A DNA stretch of 25,324 nt from a virus, in IMG/VR virus record IMGVR_UViG_3300042541_000238, positions 1-25,324 of that record; one strand, 5' to 3'. The position numbers and the translations under genes were made by a program. Shown piece after piece: positions 4,319 to 23,323 of the stretch (the first letter of the stretch is position 1; the number at the start of each line of letters is the position of its first letter). The notes under the pieces were generated by a model that had not been told where the DNA came from, searched no databases, and saw nothing but the letters and a program-made list of their open reading frames with translations.

Positions 4319-4803
4319 TGGACTGGCTTAAACAAATTGCACCTACGATTGCCACTGCTCTTGGTGGCCCCTTGGCTGGCATGGCAGTATCAGCTATTAG
4401 CAAAGCGATTGGCGTTGACCCCGAGAAGGTGGGCGACCTAATCAGCAGCAACAAATTAAGCGCAGAGCAGATTGCTCAAGTGAAATTAGCCGAGATTGAA
4501 CTGCAAAAGCAGGCGCAAGAACTTGGCCTTAATTTTGAAAAGCTGGAAGTTGAAGATCGCAAGAGCGCCAGGGATATGCAGTCAGTCACTAGGTCAGTGA
4601 TGCCGCCAATACTGGCTGCTGCTGTAACTATTGGATTTTTTACCATCATGATTATGATGTTTTTCAACAAGATCGACTCTAGCAACCCGGCTATCTTGAT
4701 GATGCTGGGCAGTTTAGGCACAGCCTGGACGGGCATCATTGCTTATTATTTTGGCAGCAGCGCTGGGAGCCAAGCCAAAACTGATTTGCTGAGTAAAAAA
4801 TGA
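4318..4803 (+). CDS. Three-TM phage holin
   Basis: This 161-residue protein has a hydrophobic region at about 8-30 (IATALGGPLAGMAVSAISKAI), a long amphipathic middle (about 38-95), then two strong membrane segments at about 96-117 (PPILAAAVTIGFFTIMIMMFF) and about 126-148 (ILMMLGSLGTAWTGIIAYYFG), followed by a polar tail with SSAGSQAKTDLL. This arrangement and the conserved GSLGTAWTGIIAYYFGSS-type end match the 3TM holin family also known from gene transfer agents (GTA_holin_3TM). Holins open the inner membrane so the endolysin reaches the cell wall. It overlaps the endolysin start by ATGA (4800-4803), the usual holin-endolysin order. Confidence 0.85.
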   Translation: MDWLKQIAPTIATALGGPLAGMAVSAISKAIGVDPEKVGDLISSNKLSAEQIAQVKLAEIELQKQAQELGLNFEKLEVEDRKSARDMQSVTRSVMPPILAAAVTIGFFTIMIMMFFNKIDSSNPAILMMLGSLGTAWTGIIAYYFGSSAGSQAKTDLLSKK

Positions 4804-5222
4804 CGCCTCACTTTAGCCTTGCCGAGTTGACGATGACAAGCCATCGGCAGTTTGACAACACCCCCAATGCTGCTGAGTTGGCAAACCTGACCCGACTAGC
4901 ACAGTTTCTGGAGTTGGTAAAAGCCAAGCTGGATGGCAAGCCAATCATGGTGAACTCGGCCTTTCGGTCTAAGGCCGTCAATGACTCAGTGGGCAGTAAA
5001 GACACTTCTCAGCACCGGCTAGGCTGCGCTGCTGACATTCGTGTACCCGGCATGACGCCTGACCAAGTTGTACGCGCTATCATGAGCCACGGGCTGTACT
5101 TTGACCAGATCATCAGAGAGTTTGACGCCTGGACGCACATCAGTATCCCAAACACAGCAGCCTTGCTACCCCGGCGTCAGGCGCTCATCATTGACAAGCT
5201 AGGAACTAGACCCTTTGTTTAG
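4800..5222 (+). CDS. Endolysin, M15-type zinc peptidase
   Basis: This 140-residue protein carries the M15 D-Ala-D-Ala peptidase pattern: SxHxxGxAxD at residues 70-79 (SQHRLGCAAD, zinc ligands H72 and D79) and the third ligand in WTHISI (H113). E107 shortly before it is the likely catalytic base. The N-terminal HFSLAELT and the SAFRS segment (53-57) are also typical of the Peptidase_M15_3 group. Such enzymes cleave peptide cross-links in peptidoglycan. No signal peptide is present, so release through the holin encoded immediately upstream is expected. The 3' end overlaps the leftward gene at 5199-5363 by 24 bases in convergent orientation. Confidence 0.9.
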   Translation: MTPHFSLAELTMTSHRQFDNTPNAAELANLTRLAQFLELVKAKLDGKPIMVNSAFRSKAVNDSVGSKDTSQHRLGCAADIRVPGMTPDQVVRAIMSHGLYFDQIIREFDAWTHISIPNTAALLPRRQALIIDKLGTRPFV

Positions 5223-5363
5223 TACCCGGTACGCCTCAATCGCATCCCGCAAGTCACCCCGCAATTGCTCTAGCTGGTCTTGCTGCTGCTGGAGCCGCAG
5301 GTAGGCTTCAAGCGCAAACTTGTCCAGAGTCGCCCTATCCCACGTGTTAAATGTAGGCGTCAT
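5199..5363 (-). CDS. Small coiled-coil protein, distal gene of leftward operon
   Basis: This 54-residue protein (MTPTFNTWDRATLDKFALEA...) is mostly helical: residues about 10-50 (RATLDKFALEAYLRLQQQQ, then DQLEQLRGDLRDAIEAYRVL) have heptad-like leucines and many glutamines. A longer frame would start at 5435, but the ATG at 5363-5361 overlaps the upstream TGA as ATGA, which decides the start by translational coupling. It is the last gene of the leftward operon and its end lies inside the endolysin gene on the other strand. The function is unknown. It could partner the HTH protein encoded next to it. Confidence 0.6.
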   Translation of the reverse strand: MTPTFNTWDRATLDKFALEAYLRLQQQQDQLEQLRGDLRDAIEAYRVLNKGSSS

Positions 5364-5572
5364 GGGTGTGGGCAATCTTCTGGGACAAAGGCTAGGCAAT
5401 GGACGCCAGCATATTTGCTTCTCGACTTCTCCCACCTGTCGATATAGGTGTCAGGCATCAGCGACAAGGAACGACTGATTGCTGATGGCTCTGCGCCCAA
5501 CATCAGCGCCAGTTGCTTGGCAGTCAGGCCATCAGGCGATTGGGCCAAGGCGTCCCGGATTTGTTTAGACAT
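5360..5572 (-). CDS. Small winged-HTH-like DNA-binding protein
   Basis: This 70-residue protein has a helix-turn-helix pattern at about residues 14-40 (DGLTAKQLALMLGAEPSAIS, then RSLSLMPD), followed by a possible wing (YIDRWEKSRSKYAGVHCLAF). This is the layout of MarR/LexA-N-like winged helices, so a role as a small transcriptional regulator is reasonable but not proven. The start is taken as ATG 5572, which forms TAATG with the stop of the 31-residue gene upstream. A GTG two codons earlier (5578) has a GAGGA six bases before it and is an alternative. It may regulate this operon or host genes. Confidence 0.65.
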   Translation of the reverse strand: MSKQIRDALAQSPDGLTAKQLALMLGAEPSAISRSLSLMPDTYIDRWEKSRSKYAGVHCLAFVPEDCPHP

Positions 5573-5667
5573 TACCACGGCGCATCCTCGTAGTTTTCTG
5601 GGTTGAATGGGATGGGTTTGGCTGGCAGCGGCTTGGGCAACTCGGTGGGGAAGGGCCAGTTATCCAT
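5572..5667 (-). CDS. 31-residue proline-rich peptide gene
   Basis: This is a short leftward ORF (MDNWPFPTELPKPLPAKPIP... ending ENYEDAPW). It has a good Shine-Dalgarno (GAAGGAGCGCA before the ATG), its start lies 8 bases inside the upstream gene, and its stop overlaps the next start (TAATG). Seven of its residues are proline, with acidic and aromatic residues at the C-terminus. The two-sided coupling and strong ribosome site support translation. The function is unknown. A disordered proline-rich peptide of this type could bind a host protein. Confidence 0.6.
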   Translation of the reverse strand: MDNWPFPTELPKPLPAKPIPFNPENYEDAPW

Positions 5668-6211: not shown

Positions 6212-6330
6212 AGCATCCCCCACAAAAATCCAGCCAAGCCAGCAATACCTGTCACGGCAAACAGCACCAGGATTACCGTAGCAATCAGGTGCATCCAGTT
6301 GGCGAGTTCATAGTCATCGTTGTCATTCAT
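6208..6330 (-). CDS. Small one-TM membrane protein
   Basis: This 40-residue protein has an acidic N-terminus (MNDNDDYELANW) and one long hydrophobic helix at about 13-38 (MHLIATVILVLFAVTGIAGL, then AGFLWGM). The start at 6330 lies in an ATGAATGA overlap with the upstream stop, and its own stop overlaps the next start (ATGA). It is expected in the inner membrane, acidic end probably in the cytoplasm or periplasm depending on insertion. The function is unknown. Small phage membrane peptides can act in superinfection exclusion or as lysis modulators. Confidence 0.6.
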   Translation of the reverse strand: MNDNDDYELANWMHLIATVILVLFAVTGIAGLAGFLWGML

Positions 6331-17750: not shown

Positions 17751-17999
17751 TCAGTAGCCGAACATGAAGGCAGGCAGGGACTGCTTGCGGATCAGGCTTT
17801 TGCGGGTTGCAGGATGCATTGTGGCAACCCGCTCCCATTGTTGAGCGGCTTCGGCCGCCACGTCAGCATCTAGCATGGCGGCTTGCGTCAAACTATCATT
17901 GCCGCCAAAGGTAACAACGTACAAGGCAACAGTTGCTTGGGCAACAGTTGCTGCGTGACGTGCTGTTGCGGCTTTGTTGAGTGCTTCGGATTTTGTCAT
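17751..17999 (-). CDS. First gene of leftward small-gene operon (82 aa)
   Basis: This 82-residue Ala-rich protein begins MTKSEALNKAATARHAATVA and has AAAGG eight bases before its ATG. Residues 1-30 and 38-66 look helical; the end is KSLIRKQSLPAFMFGY. It is separated from the next gene by 68 bases holding a hairpin, so its expression could be set separately. No family was recognised. Confidence 0.55.
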   Translation of the reverse strand: MTKSEALNKAATARHAATVAQATVALYVVTFGGNDSLTQAAMLDADVAAEAAQQWERVATMHPATRKSLIRKQSLPAFMFGY

Positions 18000-18098: not shown

Positions 18099-18235
18099 TG
18101 ATACGTAACACTATTTACTACGTAGGTGTTTACCCTTAGTGCTTTGTGGGTGATGTGGGCGATTGTGTGGGTGATGGCGCAGGTGTGATCTTGCCCTCTG
18201 AAAAACCCCTCTTGTGTGTCATGTGTGTCATATAT

Positions 18236-18264
18236 TTGTATAGGTCTATGAAAATATATATACT
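18236..18264 (+). promoter_or_regulatory. Rightward promoter overlapping a LexA box
   Basis: TTGTAT (18236-18241), a 17-base spacer and TATACT (18259-18264) form a good sigma70 pattern. The -10 overlaps the first four bases of the LexA-type box, the usual arrangement for a LexA-repressed promoter. Transcription would run through the repeat array towards the terminase genes. Confidence 0.5.
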
Positions 18265-18280
18265 GTATATAATAACAGTA
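18261..18280. promoter_or_regulatory. LexA-type SOS box
   Basis: The sequence is TACTGT, eight A/T bases (ATATAATA), then ACAGTA. It keeps the full CTGT-N8-ACAG core and both flanking TA pairs of the enterobacterial LexA consensus and is palindromic in its arms. It overlaps a rightward promoter. Confidence 0.75.
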
Positions 18281-18330
18281 TGAATAGTGTATGACTTCCA
18301 CGTTTGCGGCGCGACTTCAAATCGAAAATG

Positions 18331-18387
18331 ATGGCACACATGACCCACATCACCCACACGCATGGAAGTGTGTGCCATGTGTGCCAT
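18331..18387. repeat. 12-bp perfect inverted repeat with extra half-sites
   Basis: ATGGCACACATG (18331-18342) and CATGTGTGCCAT (18376-18387) are perfect inverted copies 33 bases apart. Further copies of the TGTGCCA half-motif occur at 18371-18377, and on the other strand at 18404-18414 (ACATGGCACAC). The cluster could bind an initiator or repressor. Confidence 0.65.
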
Positions 18388-18417
18388 ACAGCCATGATGA
18401 CACACATGGCACACGCT

Positions 18418-18534
18418 GCCGTGTGCTGGCTGGCCGTGCTGGCCGTGTGCTGGCTGGCTGGCTAGCCGTGTGCTGGCTGGCTGGCTAGCCGTGTGCTGGC
18501 TGGCTAGCCGTGTGCTGGCTGGCCGTGTGCTGGC
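18418..18534 (+). repeat. Array of GCCGTGTGCTGGC direct repeats
   Basis: Six units begin with GCCGTGTGCTGGC and are separated by variable CTGG/CTA additions, so the period changes (15, 19 or 23 bases). One shortened unit reads GCCGTGCTG. GCTAGCC junctions recur three times. The pattern resembles iterons or a slippage-prone tandem repeat. Units are too short and have no unique spacers, so it is not a CRISPR array. Confidence 0.75.
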
Positions 18535-18550
18535 ACACACGACACACGGC
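18522..18550. repeat. Inverted repeat closing the direct-repeat array
   Basis: GCCGTGTG (18522-18529) and CACACGGC (18543-18550) are inverted copies with a 13-base centre (CTGGCACACACGA), so the last direct-repeat unit can form a hairpin with the sequence after it. No T-tract follows. Confidence 0.5.
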
Positions 18551-18701: not shown

Positions 18702-19100
18702 ATGATGTCACTGCCTTTATCTATTAGGACGCTCAAGGCGACTGAGTCGCGCTTGCAATCGGTGTACGAAGCAGCCCGGTTAGGCTTGCATGGCGAGACA
18801 CTGGCGCTTGCAGCCGGTATGCTGCCGCAAGAGTACCTGACGCTGTGCAACTTTGACCCGGTTGTCGGCATGGCTGCGCTCAAGGGCAAAGCCGACGGCG
18901 AACGCGAGATGGCCGAGATACTGCACAACGCAGCGCGCAACGGGGACGCCAAAGCCGCGCTAGAGATACTGAAGCATCAACACGGCTGGGTTGCCAAGCA
19001 GGCTATATCGGTCGAAGTCAACCAGCGCATCTCCATCACCCAGGCACTAGAACAAGCAGAGATGCGCGTTATAAATGCAATCGACTATCTACCAACCTGA
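18702..19100 (+). CDS. Terminase small subunit (probable)
   Basis: This 132-residue, mostly helical protein lies directly before the large terminase gene, which it overlaps by 26 bases. Helices at about 8-60 (IRTLKATESRLQSVYEAARL, ETLALAAGMLPQEYLTLCNF) look like an N-terminal DNA-binding bundle. The middle (KADGEREMAEILHNAARNGD, AALEILKHQHGW) and the end (NQRISITQALEQAEMRVINA) match the common layout of phage small terminases. It would recognise the packaging site and load the large subunit. The noncoding repeats just upstream could include that site. ATG 18702 or 18705 may be used. Confidence 0.75.
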   Translation: MMSLPLSIRTLKATESRLQSVYEAARLGLHGETLALAAGMLPQEYLTLCNFDPVVGMAALKGKADGEREMAEILHNAARNGDAKAALEILKHQHGWVAKQAISVEVNQRISITQALEQAEMRVINAIDYLPT

Positions 19101-20598
19101 AGACGAGCAGGAACTCATGGCAAGGCTATGGGTTCCATCGCTCAAAGATAACCCACTGGCGTTTGTTCTGTATTTGTTTCCCTGGGGTCAGAAAGGTACG
19201 CCGCTGGAGCATTTCTCTGGCCCAAGAAAGTGGCAGCGGGATGTGTTGAATGATATTGCTACGCATATTAAGAATAATAAGGGTATGGTGGACTTTGCCG
19301 TACTCCAAGAAGCAGTATCAAGCGGTCGGGGTATTGGTAAGTCGGCGTTAGTATCTTGGCTGACTATATGGATGTTGTCCACTAGGATTGGCTCAACAAC
19401 CATCATATCGGCGAACAGTGAGAACCAGCTACGCTCAATTACCTGGGCTGAGATTACCAAGTGGTTGGCAATGTCTATTAACAGTCACTGGTTTGAAGTC
19501 TCAGCTACGCGAGTGACGCCTGCAAAGTGGTTGACTGAGTTGGTGGAACGGGATTTGAAGAAGGGAACCCGGTATTGGGGCGTAGAGGGTCGGCTTTGGA
19601 GTGCAGAGAACCCTGATGCTTATGCTGGCGTACACAATTTTGATGGTGTGCTGGTGATTTTTGATGAGGCCAGTGGTATTGATGATTCGATCTGGGCGGT
19701 GACGGGTGGATTCTTCACAGAAAACACGCCGAATCGCTTTTGGTTGGCGTTTAGCAACCCACGGCGCAACACGGGGTATTTTTATGAGACTTTTCACTCA
19801 AAGCGGGACTTTTGGGTGACTAAGGTGGTGGATGCAAGGACGGTGGAGGGTACGGACAAACAAGTTTATGAGCGGATTATTCAAGAATACGGGCCGGACA
19901 GTGCCCAGGCGCACGTTGAGGTGTATGGTGAGTTTCCGAGTGCGGGGGATGACCAGTTTATTCCATCAAATACGGTCGATGAGGCCATGAAAAGGCCAAA
20001 GTACAAGGACAATTCAGCGCCAATCATCATTGGTGTAGACCCGGCGCGGTTTGGGGCTGATGCTACGGTGATTGCGGTGCGGCAGGGGCGGGATATTGTG
20101 GCGATTAAAAAGTACCGGGGTGATGATACGATGACGGTGGTGGGGCATATCATTGAGGCGATGGAGGAATACAAGCCTGCAATGGTGGTGATTGATGAAG
20201 GTGGGTTGGGGGCGGGGATTGTGGATAGGCTCAAGGAGCAGCGGTACAAGATAAAAGGTGTAAACTTTGGGAATAAGGCCAAAAACCCGATCATGTACGG
20301 TAATATGAGGGCGCAGATGTGGGGTGACATGAAGGACTGGCTCAAATCTGCTAGTATTCCGCAGGATAGGTTTTTAAAGACTGACCTTATTAGCCCCCTA
20401 ATGAAGCCTGACTCACGGGGTACGATCTTCTTGGAGAGCAAGAAAGAGATGAAAGCACGGGGTTTAGCTAGTCCAGACGCTGCGGATGCGATATGCGTGA
20501 CGTTTGCTTTCCCTGTGGCGCATCGGGAGTATCGAGAGCCAACGCCTCGCAGGTACTCGGATCACTCGGCGGTGTCTACAGGTTGGATGGGATCATGA
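19075..20598 (+). CDS. terL: Terminase large subunit
   Basis: This 507-residue packaging motor has its ATPase domain first: Walker A SGRGIGKS (83-90), Walker B VLVIFDEAS (192-200, D197 and E198) and the coupling motif SNPRRNTG (227-234). The RNase H-fold nuclease follows: IGVDPARFGAD (319-329, D322), MVVIDEGGLG (370-379, D374) and SPDAADAI (466-473, D468 and D471). These acidic residues are those expected to hold the metal ions that cut concatemeric DNA. It works with the small subunit upstream and the portal downstream. Its TGA overlaps the next ATG (ATGA, 20595-20598). Confidence 0.95.
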   Translation: MQSTIYQPEDEQELMARLWVPSLKDNPLAFVLYLFPWGQKGTPLEHFSGPRKWQRDVLNDIATHIKNNKGMVDFAVLQEAVSSGRGIGKSALVSWLTIWMLSTRIGSTTIISANSENQLRSITWAEITKWLAMSINSHWFEVSATRVTPAKWLTELVERDLKKGTRYWGVEGRLWSAENPDAYAGVHNFDGVLVIFDEASGIDDSIWAVTGGFFTENTPNRFWLAFSNPRRNTGYFYETFHSKRDFWVTKVVDARTVEGTDKQVYERIIQEYGPDSAQAHVEVYGEFPSAGDDQFIPSNTVDEAMKRPKYKDNSAPIIIGVDPARFGADATVIAVRQGRDIVAIKKYRGDDTMTVVGHIIEAMEEYKPAMVVIDEGGLGAGIVDRLKEQRYKIKGVNFGNKAKNPIMYGNMRAQMWGDMKDWLKSASIPQDRFLKTDLISPLMKPDSRGTIFLESKKEMKARGLASPDAADAICVTFAFPVAHREYREPTPRRYSDHSAVSTGWMGS

Positions 20599-21006: not shown

Positions 21007-21131
21007 TGCCACTCAAAAAGTCACCTACGCCTGCGGCGTTCAAGGCCAATATCAGGGCCGAGGTCAAGGCAGGCAAGCCTGTCAAACAGGCCGTGGCAAT
21101 TGCTTACTCTGTTAAGAAGAAAGCAAAGTAA
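21006..21131 (+). CDS. Small Lys-rich protein (41 aa), DUF6496-like
   Basis: This 41-residue ORF joins both neighbours by TAATG overlaps (21004-21008 and 21129-21133). It begins MPLKKSPTPAAFKANIRAEV and continues KAGKPVKQAVAIAYSVKKKAK, a pattern found in many small phage and bacterial proteins (I believe DUF6496). It is highly basic. Its conserved core and perfect packing between neighbours make it a confident gene despite its length. The function is unknown; DNA or head binding is possible. Confidence 0.75.
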   Translation: MPLKKSPTPAAFKANIRAEVKAGKPVKQAVAIAYSVKKKAK

Positions 21132-23323
21132 TGGCTGACTACACCGGCATTAACAAGGCTGGCAAGGTCGCCGATGTTGGTGGGGGCGATGACGTAGAGT
21201 ACAGCGATATGCTCTCCACCATGCGCTCTCGCATGACAATGGCGGTGGATGCCTACAGTGAGAGCCGGGGCAATGAACTAGACGACCTGCGGTTTATGGC
21301 GGGTAGTCCAGACAACCAGTGGCAATGGCCTGCTGATGTACTGGCGACTCGCGGGGCCGTTCAGGGGCAGACCATCAACGCCCGTCCCTGCCTGACTATT
21401 AACAAGTTGCCGCAGCACGTGCGGCAAGTCACCAACGACCAGCGGTACAACAAGCCTAGCGGCAAAGTTATACCTGCGGATGACGTTGCTGACCCTGAGA
21501 TGGCAGAGATATTCAACGGCATAGTGCGGCACATTGAGTACATCAGTGACGCTGACATTGCCTACGCAACTGCCTGCGAGAACCAAGTCACCTATGGTGA
21601 AGGCTACATTCGGGTACTGACTGAGTACTGCGACGAGAACAGCTTTGACCAAGAACTCAAGATAGGTCGTATCCGCAACTCATTCTCGGTCTACATGGAC
21701 CCCGCCATCCAAGACCCATGCGGCGCGGATGCCCGGTGGTGCTTTGTTACTGACGATGTGCCCAAAGACGAGTACGAGCGCCTGTACCCAGACGCTGCGC
21801 CTATCAGTAGTTTGTTGTCCCTTGGGATTGGCGACCAAGACCTACAGCAATGGCTGCGCGATGACACAGTGCGGATTGCGGAGTACTTTTATCGGGAGTA
21901 CAAGGCCGAGACACTGAACCTATACCCCAACAACATTACGGCGTTCAACAACACGCCTGATGACAAGCAACTCAAGATGCTTTACGGCAAGCCGTTAAAG
22001 ACTCGGATTTCGCAGCGGGAAAAGGTTTGCTGGGTCAAGACCAACGGCTACGAGGTGCTGGAGAAGCGCGATTGGGCGGGTAAGTACATTCCCATCGTGC
22101 GGGTGGTGGGCAATGAGTTTGAGGTCAACGGACAGATTTATGTCTCTGGCTTGGTGCGAAACGCCAAGGATGCCCAGCGGATGTACAACTACTGGGTAAG
22201 CCAAGAAGCAGAGATGCTGGCCCTAGCGCCCAAGGCTCCGTTCATTGGCTACGGTGGGCAGTTTGAAGGGTACGAAACCCAGTGGAAGACCGCCAACACC
22301 ACCAACTGGCCCTACCTTGAGGTCAACCCAGATGTGACTGATGGTGCTGGCGCTACCCTGCCACTGCCCCAACGTGCCCAGCCCCCGATGGCCTCTAGTG
22401 GCCTTTTGCAAGCCAAATCGGGGGCATCTGAGGACATTAAGGCGGCAACTGGACAGTACAACGCTAGTCTGGGCATGGGTGGGAACGAGCGCAGCGGCAA
22501 GGCTATCCTAGCCCGTCAGCGCGAGGGTGACGTTGGAACCTACCACTATGTAGACAACCTAGCCCGTGCCATACGCTACGTGACCCGGCAACTGCTGGAC
22601 ATGATTCCCAAAATCTACGACACCCAGCGTATTGCCCGAATCATTGGTGAAGACGGCGATACTGAGATGGCAAAGATTGACCCGTCCCAAGAGATGCCGG
22701 TCAAGCGGATCGTCAATCAAGAAGGCATTGAGATTGACAAAATCTACAACCCCAATGTTGGCAAGTACGATGTGGTGGTGACAACCGGCCCAAGCTACAG
22801 CACTCGGCGGCAAGAGACACGGGAAGAAATGGCCCAACTGCTGCAAGGCAACCCGGCGCTCATGCAGATCGCAGGCGACTTGTTTGTTAAAGCGATGGAT
22901 TGGCCTGGGGCAGATGAGTTGGCTAAACGGCTGGCTAAGACCATTGACCCCAAACTGTTGAGCGACGATGAAGACCCGGCCCTGCAAGCTGCCAATATGC
23001 AGATGCAGGCAATGGGGCAGGAGATGCAGCAGATGCAAGAAATGCTGCTAAACGTCCAGCAATCAATGGAAGCGCAAGAGTTGGAAATCAAACGGTTTGA
23101 CTCTGAGGTCAAAGCCTACGATGTAGAAACCAAACGCATGACGGCGGTGGCTGCTGCCATGACGCCTGACCAGATACAAGAGATCGTCCTAGGTACTGTG
23201 CAAGGCATGATAACCAGCGGTGATCTGATGAGTTCGATGCCGATGGAGCCAATGATGGGCCAAGACCAGATGGGCCAAATGATGCCACCTGAAATGATGC
23301 CGCCACCAAACCAAGGTATGTAA
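21131..23323 (+). CDS. Portal protein, P22-like
   Basis: This 730-residue portal forms the dodecameric ring through which DNA is packaged and ejected. P22-portal features include RFMAGSPDNQWQWP near residues 54-67, RPCLTINKLPQHVRQVTNDQ near 84-103, the ACENQVTYGEGYIRVLTEYC segment near 144-163, SFSVYMDPAIQDP near 184-197 and the GNERSGKAILARQREGDVGT helix near 454-473. The C-terminal part (about 620-730) is a Gln/Met-rich coiled coil (QMQAMGQEMQQMQEMLLN), then a Met/Pro-rich tail, similar to the barrel-forming tail of P22-type portals. It follows the terminase and the small basic genes in the same operon. Confidence 0.93.
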   Translation: MADYTGINKAGKVADVGGGDDVEYSDMLSTMRSRMTMAVDAYSESRGNELDDLRFMAGSPDNQWQWPADVLATRGAVQGQTINARPCLTINKLPQHVRQVTNDQRYNKPSGKVIPADDVADPEMAEIFNGIVRHIEYISDADIAYATACENQVTYGEGYIRVLTEYCDENSFDQELKIGRIRNSFSVYMDPAIQDPCGADARWCFVTDDVPKDEYERLYPDAAPISSLLSLGIGDQDLQQWLRDDTVRIAEYFYREYKAETLNLYPNNITAFNNTPDDKQLKMLYGKPLKTRISQREKVCWVKTNGYEVLEKRDWAGKYIPIVRVVGNEFEVNGQIYVSGLVRNAKDAQRMYNYWVSQEAEMLALAPKAPFIGYGGQFEGYETQWKTANTTNWPYLEVNPDVTDGAGATLPLPQRAQPPMASSGLLQAKSGASEDIKAATGQYNASLGMGGNERSGKAILARQREGDVGTYHYVDNLARAIRYVTRQLLDMIPKIYDTQRIARIIGEDGDTEMAKIDPSQEMPVKRIVNQEGIEIDKIYNPNVGKYDVVVTTGPSYSTRRQETREEMAQLLQGNPALMQIAGDLFVKAMDWPGADELAKRLAKTIDPKLLSDDEDPALQAANMQMQAMGQEMQQMQEMLLNVQQSMEAQELEIKRFDSEVKAYDVETKRMTAVAAAMTPDQIQEIVLGTVQGMITSGDLMSSMPMEPMMGQDQMGQMMPPEMMPPPNQGM

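Follow-up and report, generated by a model that had tools for sequence, protein, structure and literature searches.

Can a phage in which no integrase or phage repressor is recognised leave it to its host's DNA-damage alarm to switch on its packaging and virion genes? The question is raised by a LexA-type palindrome ahead of the terminase genes in a 25,324-base IMG/VR virus record, the whole of which was analysed here (hereafter, the window). The perfect LexA-type site at the start of these genes, kept in many relatives, suggests that in this freshwater phage the timing of their expression is probably decided by the damage state of the host.

The box and its control region

The palindrome TACTGT-N8-ACAGTA lies at positions 18261–18280 (TACTGTATATAATAACAGTA) and matches 12/12 specified bases, bearing out the near-ideal LexA site that an earlier note on the window had claimed there. 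It contains the CTGT-N8-ACAG palindrome by which LexA (SOS) boxes of beta- and gammaproteobacteria are recognised, CTGTatatatatACAG being the LexA box of E. coli and of most beta- and gammaproteobacteria (PMC3108266). It is one base apart, in the spacer, from the E. coli umuD LexA box (TACTGTATATAAAAACAGTA); the umuDC box is the site of a bacterial SOS gene, whereas the present one sits in a phage. No other site in the window comes within two mismatches, and no second box was found at the replication operon. Under a first-order Markov model, the number of such sites expected is 0.0006 for the window, 0.00017 for the 702-bp gap ahead of the terminase genes and 0.00008 for the 85 bp of AT-rich sequence that surround the box, in agreement with the note's view that a chance box in a gap of about 700 bp is improbable. 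A core match at 6249–6264 was rejected as a second box: its spacer is GC-rich, the flanking TA bases are missing and the chance expectation is 0.42 per window.

The genes that bear on the reading of the box are as follows.

17751–17999, minus strand: first ORF of a divergent leftward block of small genes, taken from the ORF list, no family match above the cut-off
18702–19100, plus strand: probable terminase small subunit (terS), first gene of the rightward operon, assigned from its position next to terL and the gene order of DSL-LC05
19075–20598, plus strand: terminase large subunit (terL; phrog_2, annotated relatives)
21131–23323, plus strand: P22-like portal protein (phrog_156)
4800–5222, plus strand: endolysin (peptidase M15; PF08291, phrog_894), close to where the rightward late block ends on the circular map

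The control gap thus runs for 702 bp, from the start of the leftward ORF at 17999 to terS at 18702. The terS ORF returned no family match of its own in the family searches; DSL-LC05 carries an annotated terminase small subunit in the same gene order. Tailspike-like genes also lie to the right of the box, together with terS, terL and the portal gene. Elsewhere, a rightward replication block (exonuclease, DNA polymerase and primase) spans 9.4–15.6 kb, and a helicase, a methyltransferase and a nuclease are encoded leftward at 7.1–9.2 kb. The late-gene order of DSL-LC05 equals that of the window and several relatives of 36–38 kb have short end overlaps, like complete circular assemblies, suggesting a late block that probably extends from terS round the circular map as far as the lysis genes. 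A megablast search of the region against isolated phages returned no match. At 5360–5578 (minus strand), the window encodes a small winged-helix-like protein with weak MarR/ArsR matches, a possible phage regulator.

The following elements were located in the control gap.

18213–18230, plus strand: tandem pair of 9-bp repeats (TGTGTGTCA), immediately upstream of the proposed promoter, from sequence
18236–18264, plus strand: putative promoter reading rightward, TTGTAT-N17-TATACT, with which the box overlaps, from sequence; weak, with 8/12 consensus bases
18261–18280, no strand assigned: putative LexA-type operator TACTGT-ATATAATA-ACAGTA, an exact match with N8 and half-sites conserved in relatives
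18332–18358, minus strand: three inverted copies of the 9-bp repeat (TGGCACACA, TGACCCACA and TCACCCACA), downstream of the box, from sequence
18369–18415, no strand assigned: further 9-bp repeat copies, two in each orientation, from sequence

The promoter proposed in the earlier note is present, with TTGTAT at 18236–18241, a 17-bp spacer and TATACT at 18259–18264, and the box does overlap its proposed −10. However, it falls under the threshold of the promoter scan, which did not report it, and its weak −35 (TTGTAT) is not kept in relatives. As the −10 letters TACT belong to the box, they provide no independent evidence for a promoter. A perfect TATAAT occurs inside the box, at 18268–18273.

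Repeats of the TGTGTGTCA type, in forward and inverted pairs, surround the box across 18213–18415. Many relatives have tandem 9-bp pairs of other sequence in the same place (e.g. TGTGGACAA, TTTGGGTCA and TGTTGGCTA), some of them similar to DnaA boxes. These repeats might act as an origin, as activator sites or in packaging. Between the box and terS, the leader contains low-complexity CTGGCTGGCTAGCC / GTGTGCTGG repeats (18420–18535).

Conservation of the box and variation of the slot

Comparison across related phages, which the earlier note had put forward as a check, was carried out on 80 terL and 80 terS loci and revealed that the half-sites and the N8 spacing are kept in many relatives, while a minority of close relatives are boxless. 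The identical 20-mer occurs in near relatives from different metagenomes, a sister group has the textbook TACTGTATATATATACAGTA in place of the window's box and locus L157 carries TACTGTGTATATATACAGTA. Within the clade, the half-sites are fixed and the spacer varies (ATATAATA, GTATATAT and ATATATAT). The members without the box are L005, L168 and the complete genome G025 (L172); L165 has a spacing of N6 instead of N8, and L170 and L179 have ATTGTATATAGTATACAAT in the slot.

A per-column figure for half-site conservation is inflated, as its rows were chosen for having the box; a spacing control free of that choice was obtained by counting CTGT-Nk-ACAG (k=3–14) across 100 distinct control regions, within the AT-rich slot of each. 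The N8 spacing was found in 14 of 22 clade slots and in 4 of 78 slots outside the clade, with every other spacing from N3 to N14 returning 0 or 1. Dinucleotide shuffles gave means of 0.035 and 0.078 slots against the 14 and 4 observed, and none of 400 reached the observed counts.

In a FastTree phylogeny of terL, 10 changes are needed for the LexA type, at least five of them forced by starred branches, and the box is found beside different 9-bp repeats across relatives. Together, these observations indicate that the box is not one inherited accident but has been gained, lost or exchanged repeatedly. Separately, the terL of G002 (L003) is 98 % identical to that of the window, yet its control region, terS and replication block are unrelated, suggesting module exchange.

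More distant relatives hold ATTTCATAATGTGAAAT, TGTAAGGAAATTCCTTACA, TAAGGGTATACCCTTA or TACTATATAGCTATACAGTA in the slot; given that many relatives have different palindromes there, the slot itself is not specific to LexA. Across the terL-anchored loci L001–L226, the inverted repeat at this slot, approximately 770–1070 bases upstream of terL, falls into five or more types, as if an exchange of operators had taken place.

A probable host-LexA operator and the timing of the late genes

Related contigs are binned with metagenome-assembled genomes (MAGs) of Rhodoferax, Burkholderiales, Methylococcaceae and others, a mixture too great to settle the host. The 20-bp pattern returned 28 sites in 31 genomes of the family of the Rhodoferax MAG, against 0 for the reversed control. 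The genes adjoining four of these sites were checked by family search, and three proved to be imuA and one to encode a PA0069 radical SAM protein. The motif marks SOS genes in this family, which is a plausible host group. The identical 20-mer is also found in unrelated phages, where it precedes umuD-like and integrase genes. Of the other palindromes in the slot, the TGTAAGG type (type III) was found in 0/61 genomes belonging to this family, and the ATTTCA type (type II) at scattered single sites only; a role for either as a host motif was thus unsupported in that family. Being absent or scattered there, these palindromes may be bound by phage proteins or by the regulators of other hosts.

Searches for lysogeny genes were negative. 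No integrase match above the cut-off was returned for any virus or phage record tested, a Peptidase_S24 repressor was absent from 24/24 records, and no HTH_3 repressor match above the cut-off was found in the virus records tested, the one match below it being in DSL-LC05. The note had seen no repressor or integrase in the window, and the near-complete relatives are likewise without an integrase, S24 or HTH_3 match. Neither a dedicated phage repressor nor integration functions are recognised in the virus records, and small HTH proteins of other kinds are possible. The distant relative DSL-LC05 is predicted to be virulent (BACPHLIP).

Taking these data together, we consider it quite probable that the box is a host-LexA operator on a rightward late promoter, its likeliest role being to delay the late genes until the SOS response, given that no integrase or repressor is recognised and that the replication operon is boxless. 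Intact host LexA bound at 18261–18280, over the −10 and start region, would block RNA polymerase and hold down the late promoter, which would read terS, terL, the portal gene and the virion genes. RecA filaments on single-stranded DNA, whether external damage or the replicating phage is its source, would then provoke LexA self-cleavage and release the promoter. With boxless replication genes, early functions could run first, SOS then opening the late block. LexA binding, promoter activity and the biological role are inferred, and the mechanism is read from the anatomy of the locus.

The use of host LexA envisaged by the note is well supported at the sequence level by the conserved half-sites and N8, an SOS motif in a plausible host family and the missing S24 repressor and integrase, with binding itself predicted. 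The note's further suggestion of an induction switch exceeds the evidence, as nothing points to lysogeny, the replication operon is boxless, DSL-LC05 is predicted virulent and the box is lost in some close relatives. The data are fitted at least as well by late genes that are held back until DNA damage occurs, damage or single-stranded DNA produced by phage replication included.

Precedents and competing readings

The nearest precedent is GIL01, a temperate tectivirus of Bacillus thuringiensis, in which host LexA binds the late promoter P3 (capsid and lysis genes) and no dedicated phage repressor exists; further LexA sites lie at its replication promoter P1, and the phage proteins gp6 and gp7 act as cofactors (PMC6182141, PMC4551915). 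As in GIL01, the predicted LexA site of the window is at a proposed late promoter, here between the divergent leftward ORFs and terS-terL, and no repressor or integrase is recognised. Unlike GIL01, the window has a podophage-type genome of the tailed phages with a single box, none at the replication operon and no sign of lysogeny. Since a LexA site at the replication promoter was looked for and none was found, we do not file the window phage as GIL01-type.

In the temperate Gifsy prophages, phage 186 (Tum) and N15 (AntC), LexA controls an antirepressor that acts on the phage repressor (PMC3121763). There, as in the window, a LexA box in the phage genome ties phage genes to SOS; in the window, however, the box precedes terS, terL, the portal gene and the virion genes, and a phage repressor was not found. 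A parallel idea of timing is CtrA-dependent lytic deferment in phages of Alphaproteobacteria, some postulated to be virulent, in which sites for a host regulator are proposed to time lysis by host state (PMC9437464), although the regulator is another one (CtrA, of the cell cycle) and the phages are unrelated. A literature search for a LexA box on the terminase operon of a virulent phage found none in the collection of papers searched, which is not proof of absence.

If the late genes are indeed LexA-gated, phages without recognisable lysogeny genes would still read the damage state of their host, and the GIL01 principle would apply also to tailed phages that are common in lakes. Earlier lysis would be predicted under damaging conditions and as a result of phage replication, and the relatives with and without the box would constitute a natural, direct test of lysis timed by host state.

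A different life style with the same operator would have LexA act, in the manner of GIL01, as lysogeny repressor for a temperate phage that does not integrate, so that damage induces a dormant extrachromosomal genome. We regard this as unlikely, its probability overlapping with that of the late-gene delay on account of the shared operator. It accommodates the lack of an integrase and S24 repressor and the LexA site on a late promoter, but not readily the boxless replication operon and boxless relatives, nor the virulent prediction for DSL-LC05. Plasmid records contained no close relative (38 % identity at best among the matches listed), and phage-plasmid status was rejected on these distant matches.

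Somewhat less probable still is a phage-encoded dimeric regulator of fast-changing specificity that binds the slot, the clade's site being merely LexA-like. The differing palindromes in the relatives' slot (ATTTCATAATGTGAAAT, TGTAAGGAAATTCCTTACA, TAAGGGTATACCCTTA and ATTGTATATAGTATACAAT) favour such a protein, as does the failure of types II and III to behave as motifs in the bacterial family tested; a few small HTH-like phage proteins could be candidates (5360–5578 in the window and, by eye, 22575–22829 in G030). Yet no gene in the leftward block or among the window ORFs tracks the LexA-type box, no regulator tracking types II and III was evident in a whole-genome comparison of three genomes, and an exact 12/12 match to LexA with N8 at several tree positions would be a remarkable coincidence.

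With host LexA retained as the preferred reading of the box, we tentatively suggest a wider picture that we hold to be possible but somewhat doubtful: a widespread family of integrase-less freshwater podophages would have a swappable operator slot over the late promoter. A host LexA box would occupy the slot in one lineage, and also at other places on the tree, and time the late genes by an SOS response which phage replication may raise; in other lineages, the slot would hold operators of other regulators.

It is improbable that the palindrome belongs, along with the 9-bp repeats and the AT-rich stretch, to an origin of replication or a pac/cos site instead of acting as a transcription operator. 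The forward and inverted repeats flank an AT-rich core and recur in relatives, some being DnaA-box-like (TTGTCCACA), the region adjoins terS, and the close TerL relative G002 is without both the window's replication block and a similar terS. Nevertheless, LexA half-sites at exactly N8 are left unexplained, type V sites keep the left promoter-like letters and not the symmetry, and an origin or packaging site can coexist with an operator. A chance resemblance, for which the AT-rich surroundings and their many TATA-like runs might be invoked, is scarcely credible in the face of the shuffle averages and the conservation of the exact spacing.

A DnaA domain IV protein was considered as the binder of the 9-bp repeats and set aside, being found in 1/24 records only (MW202483). 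In that record (L147; MW202483.1, 31477–31671), it is a small phage protein matching the DnaA DNA-binding domain (PF08299).
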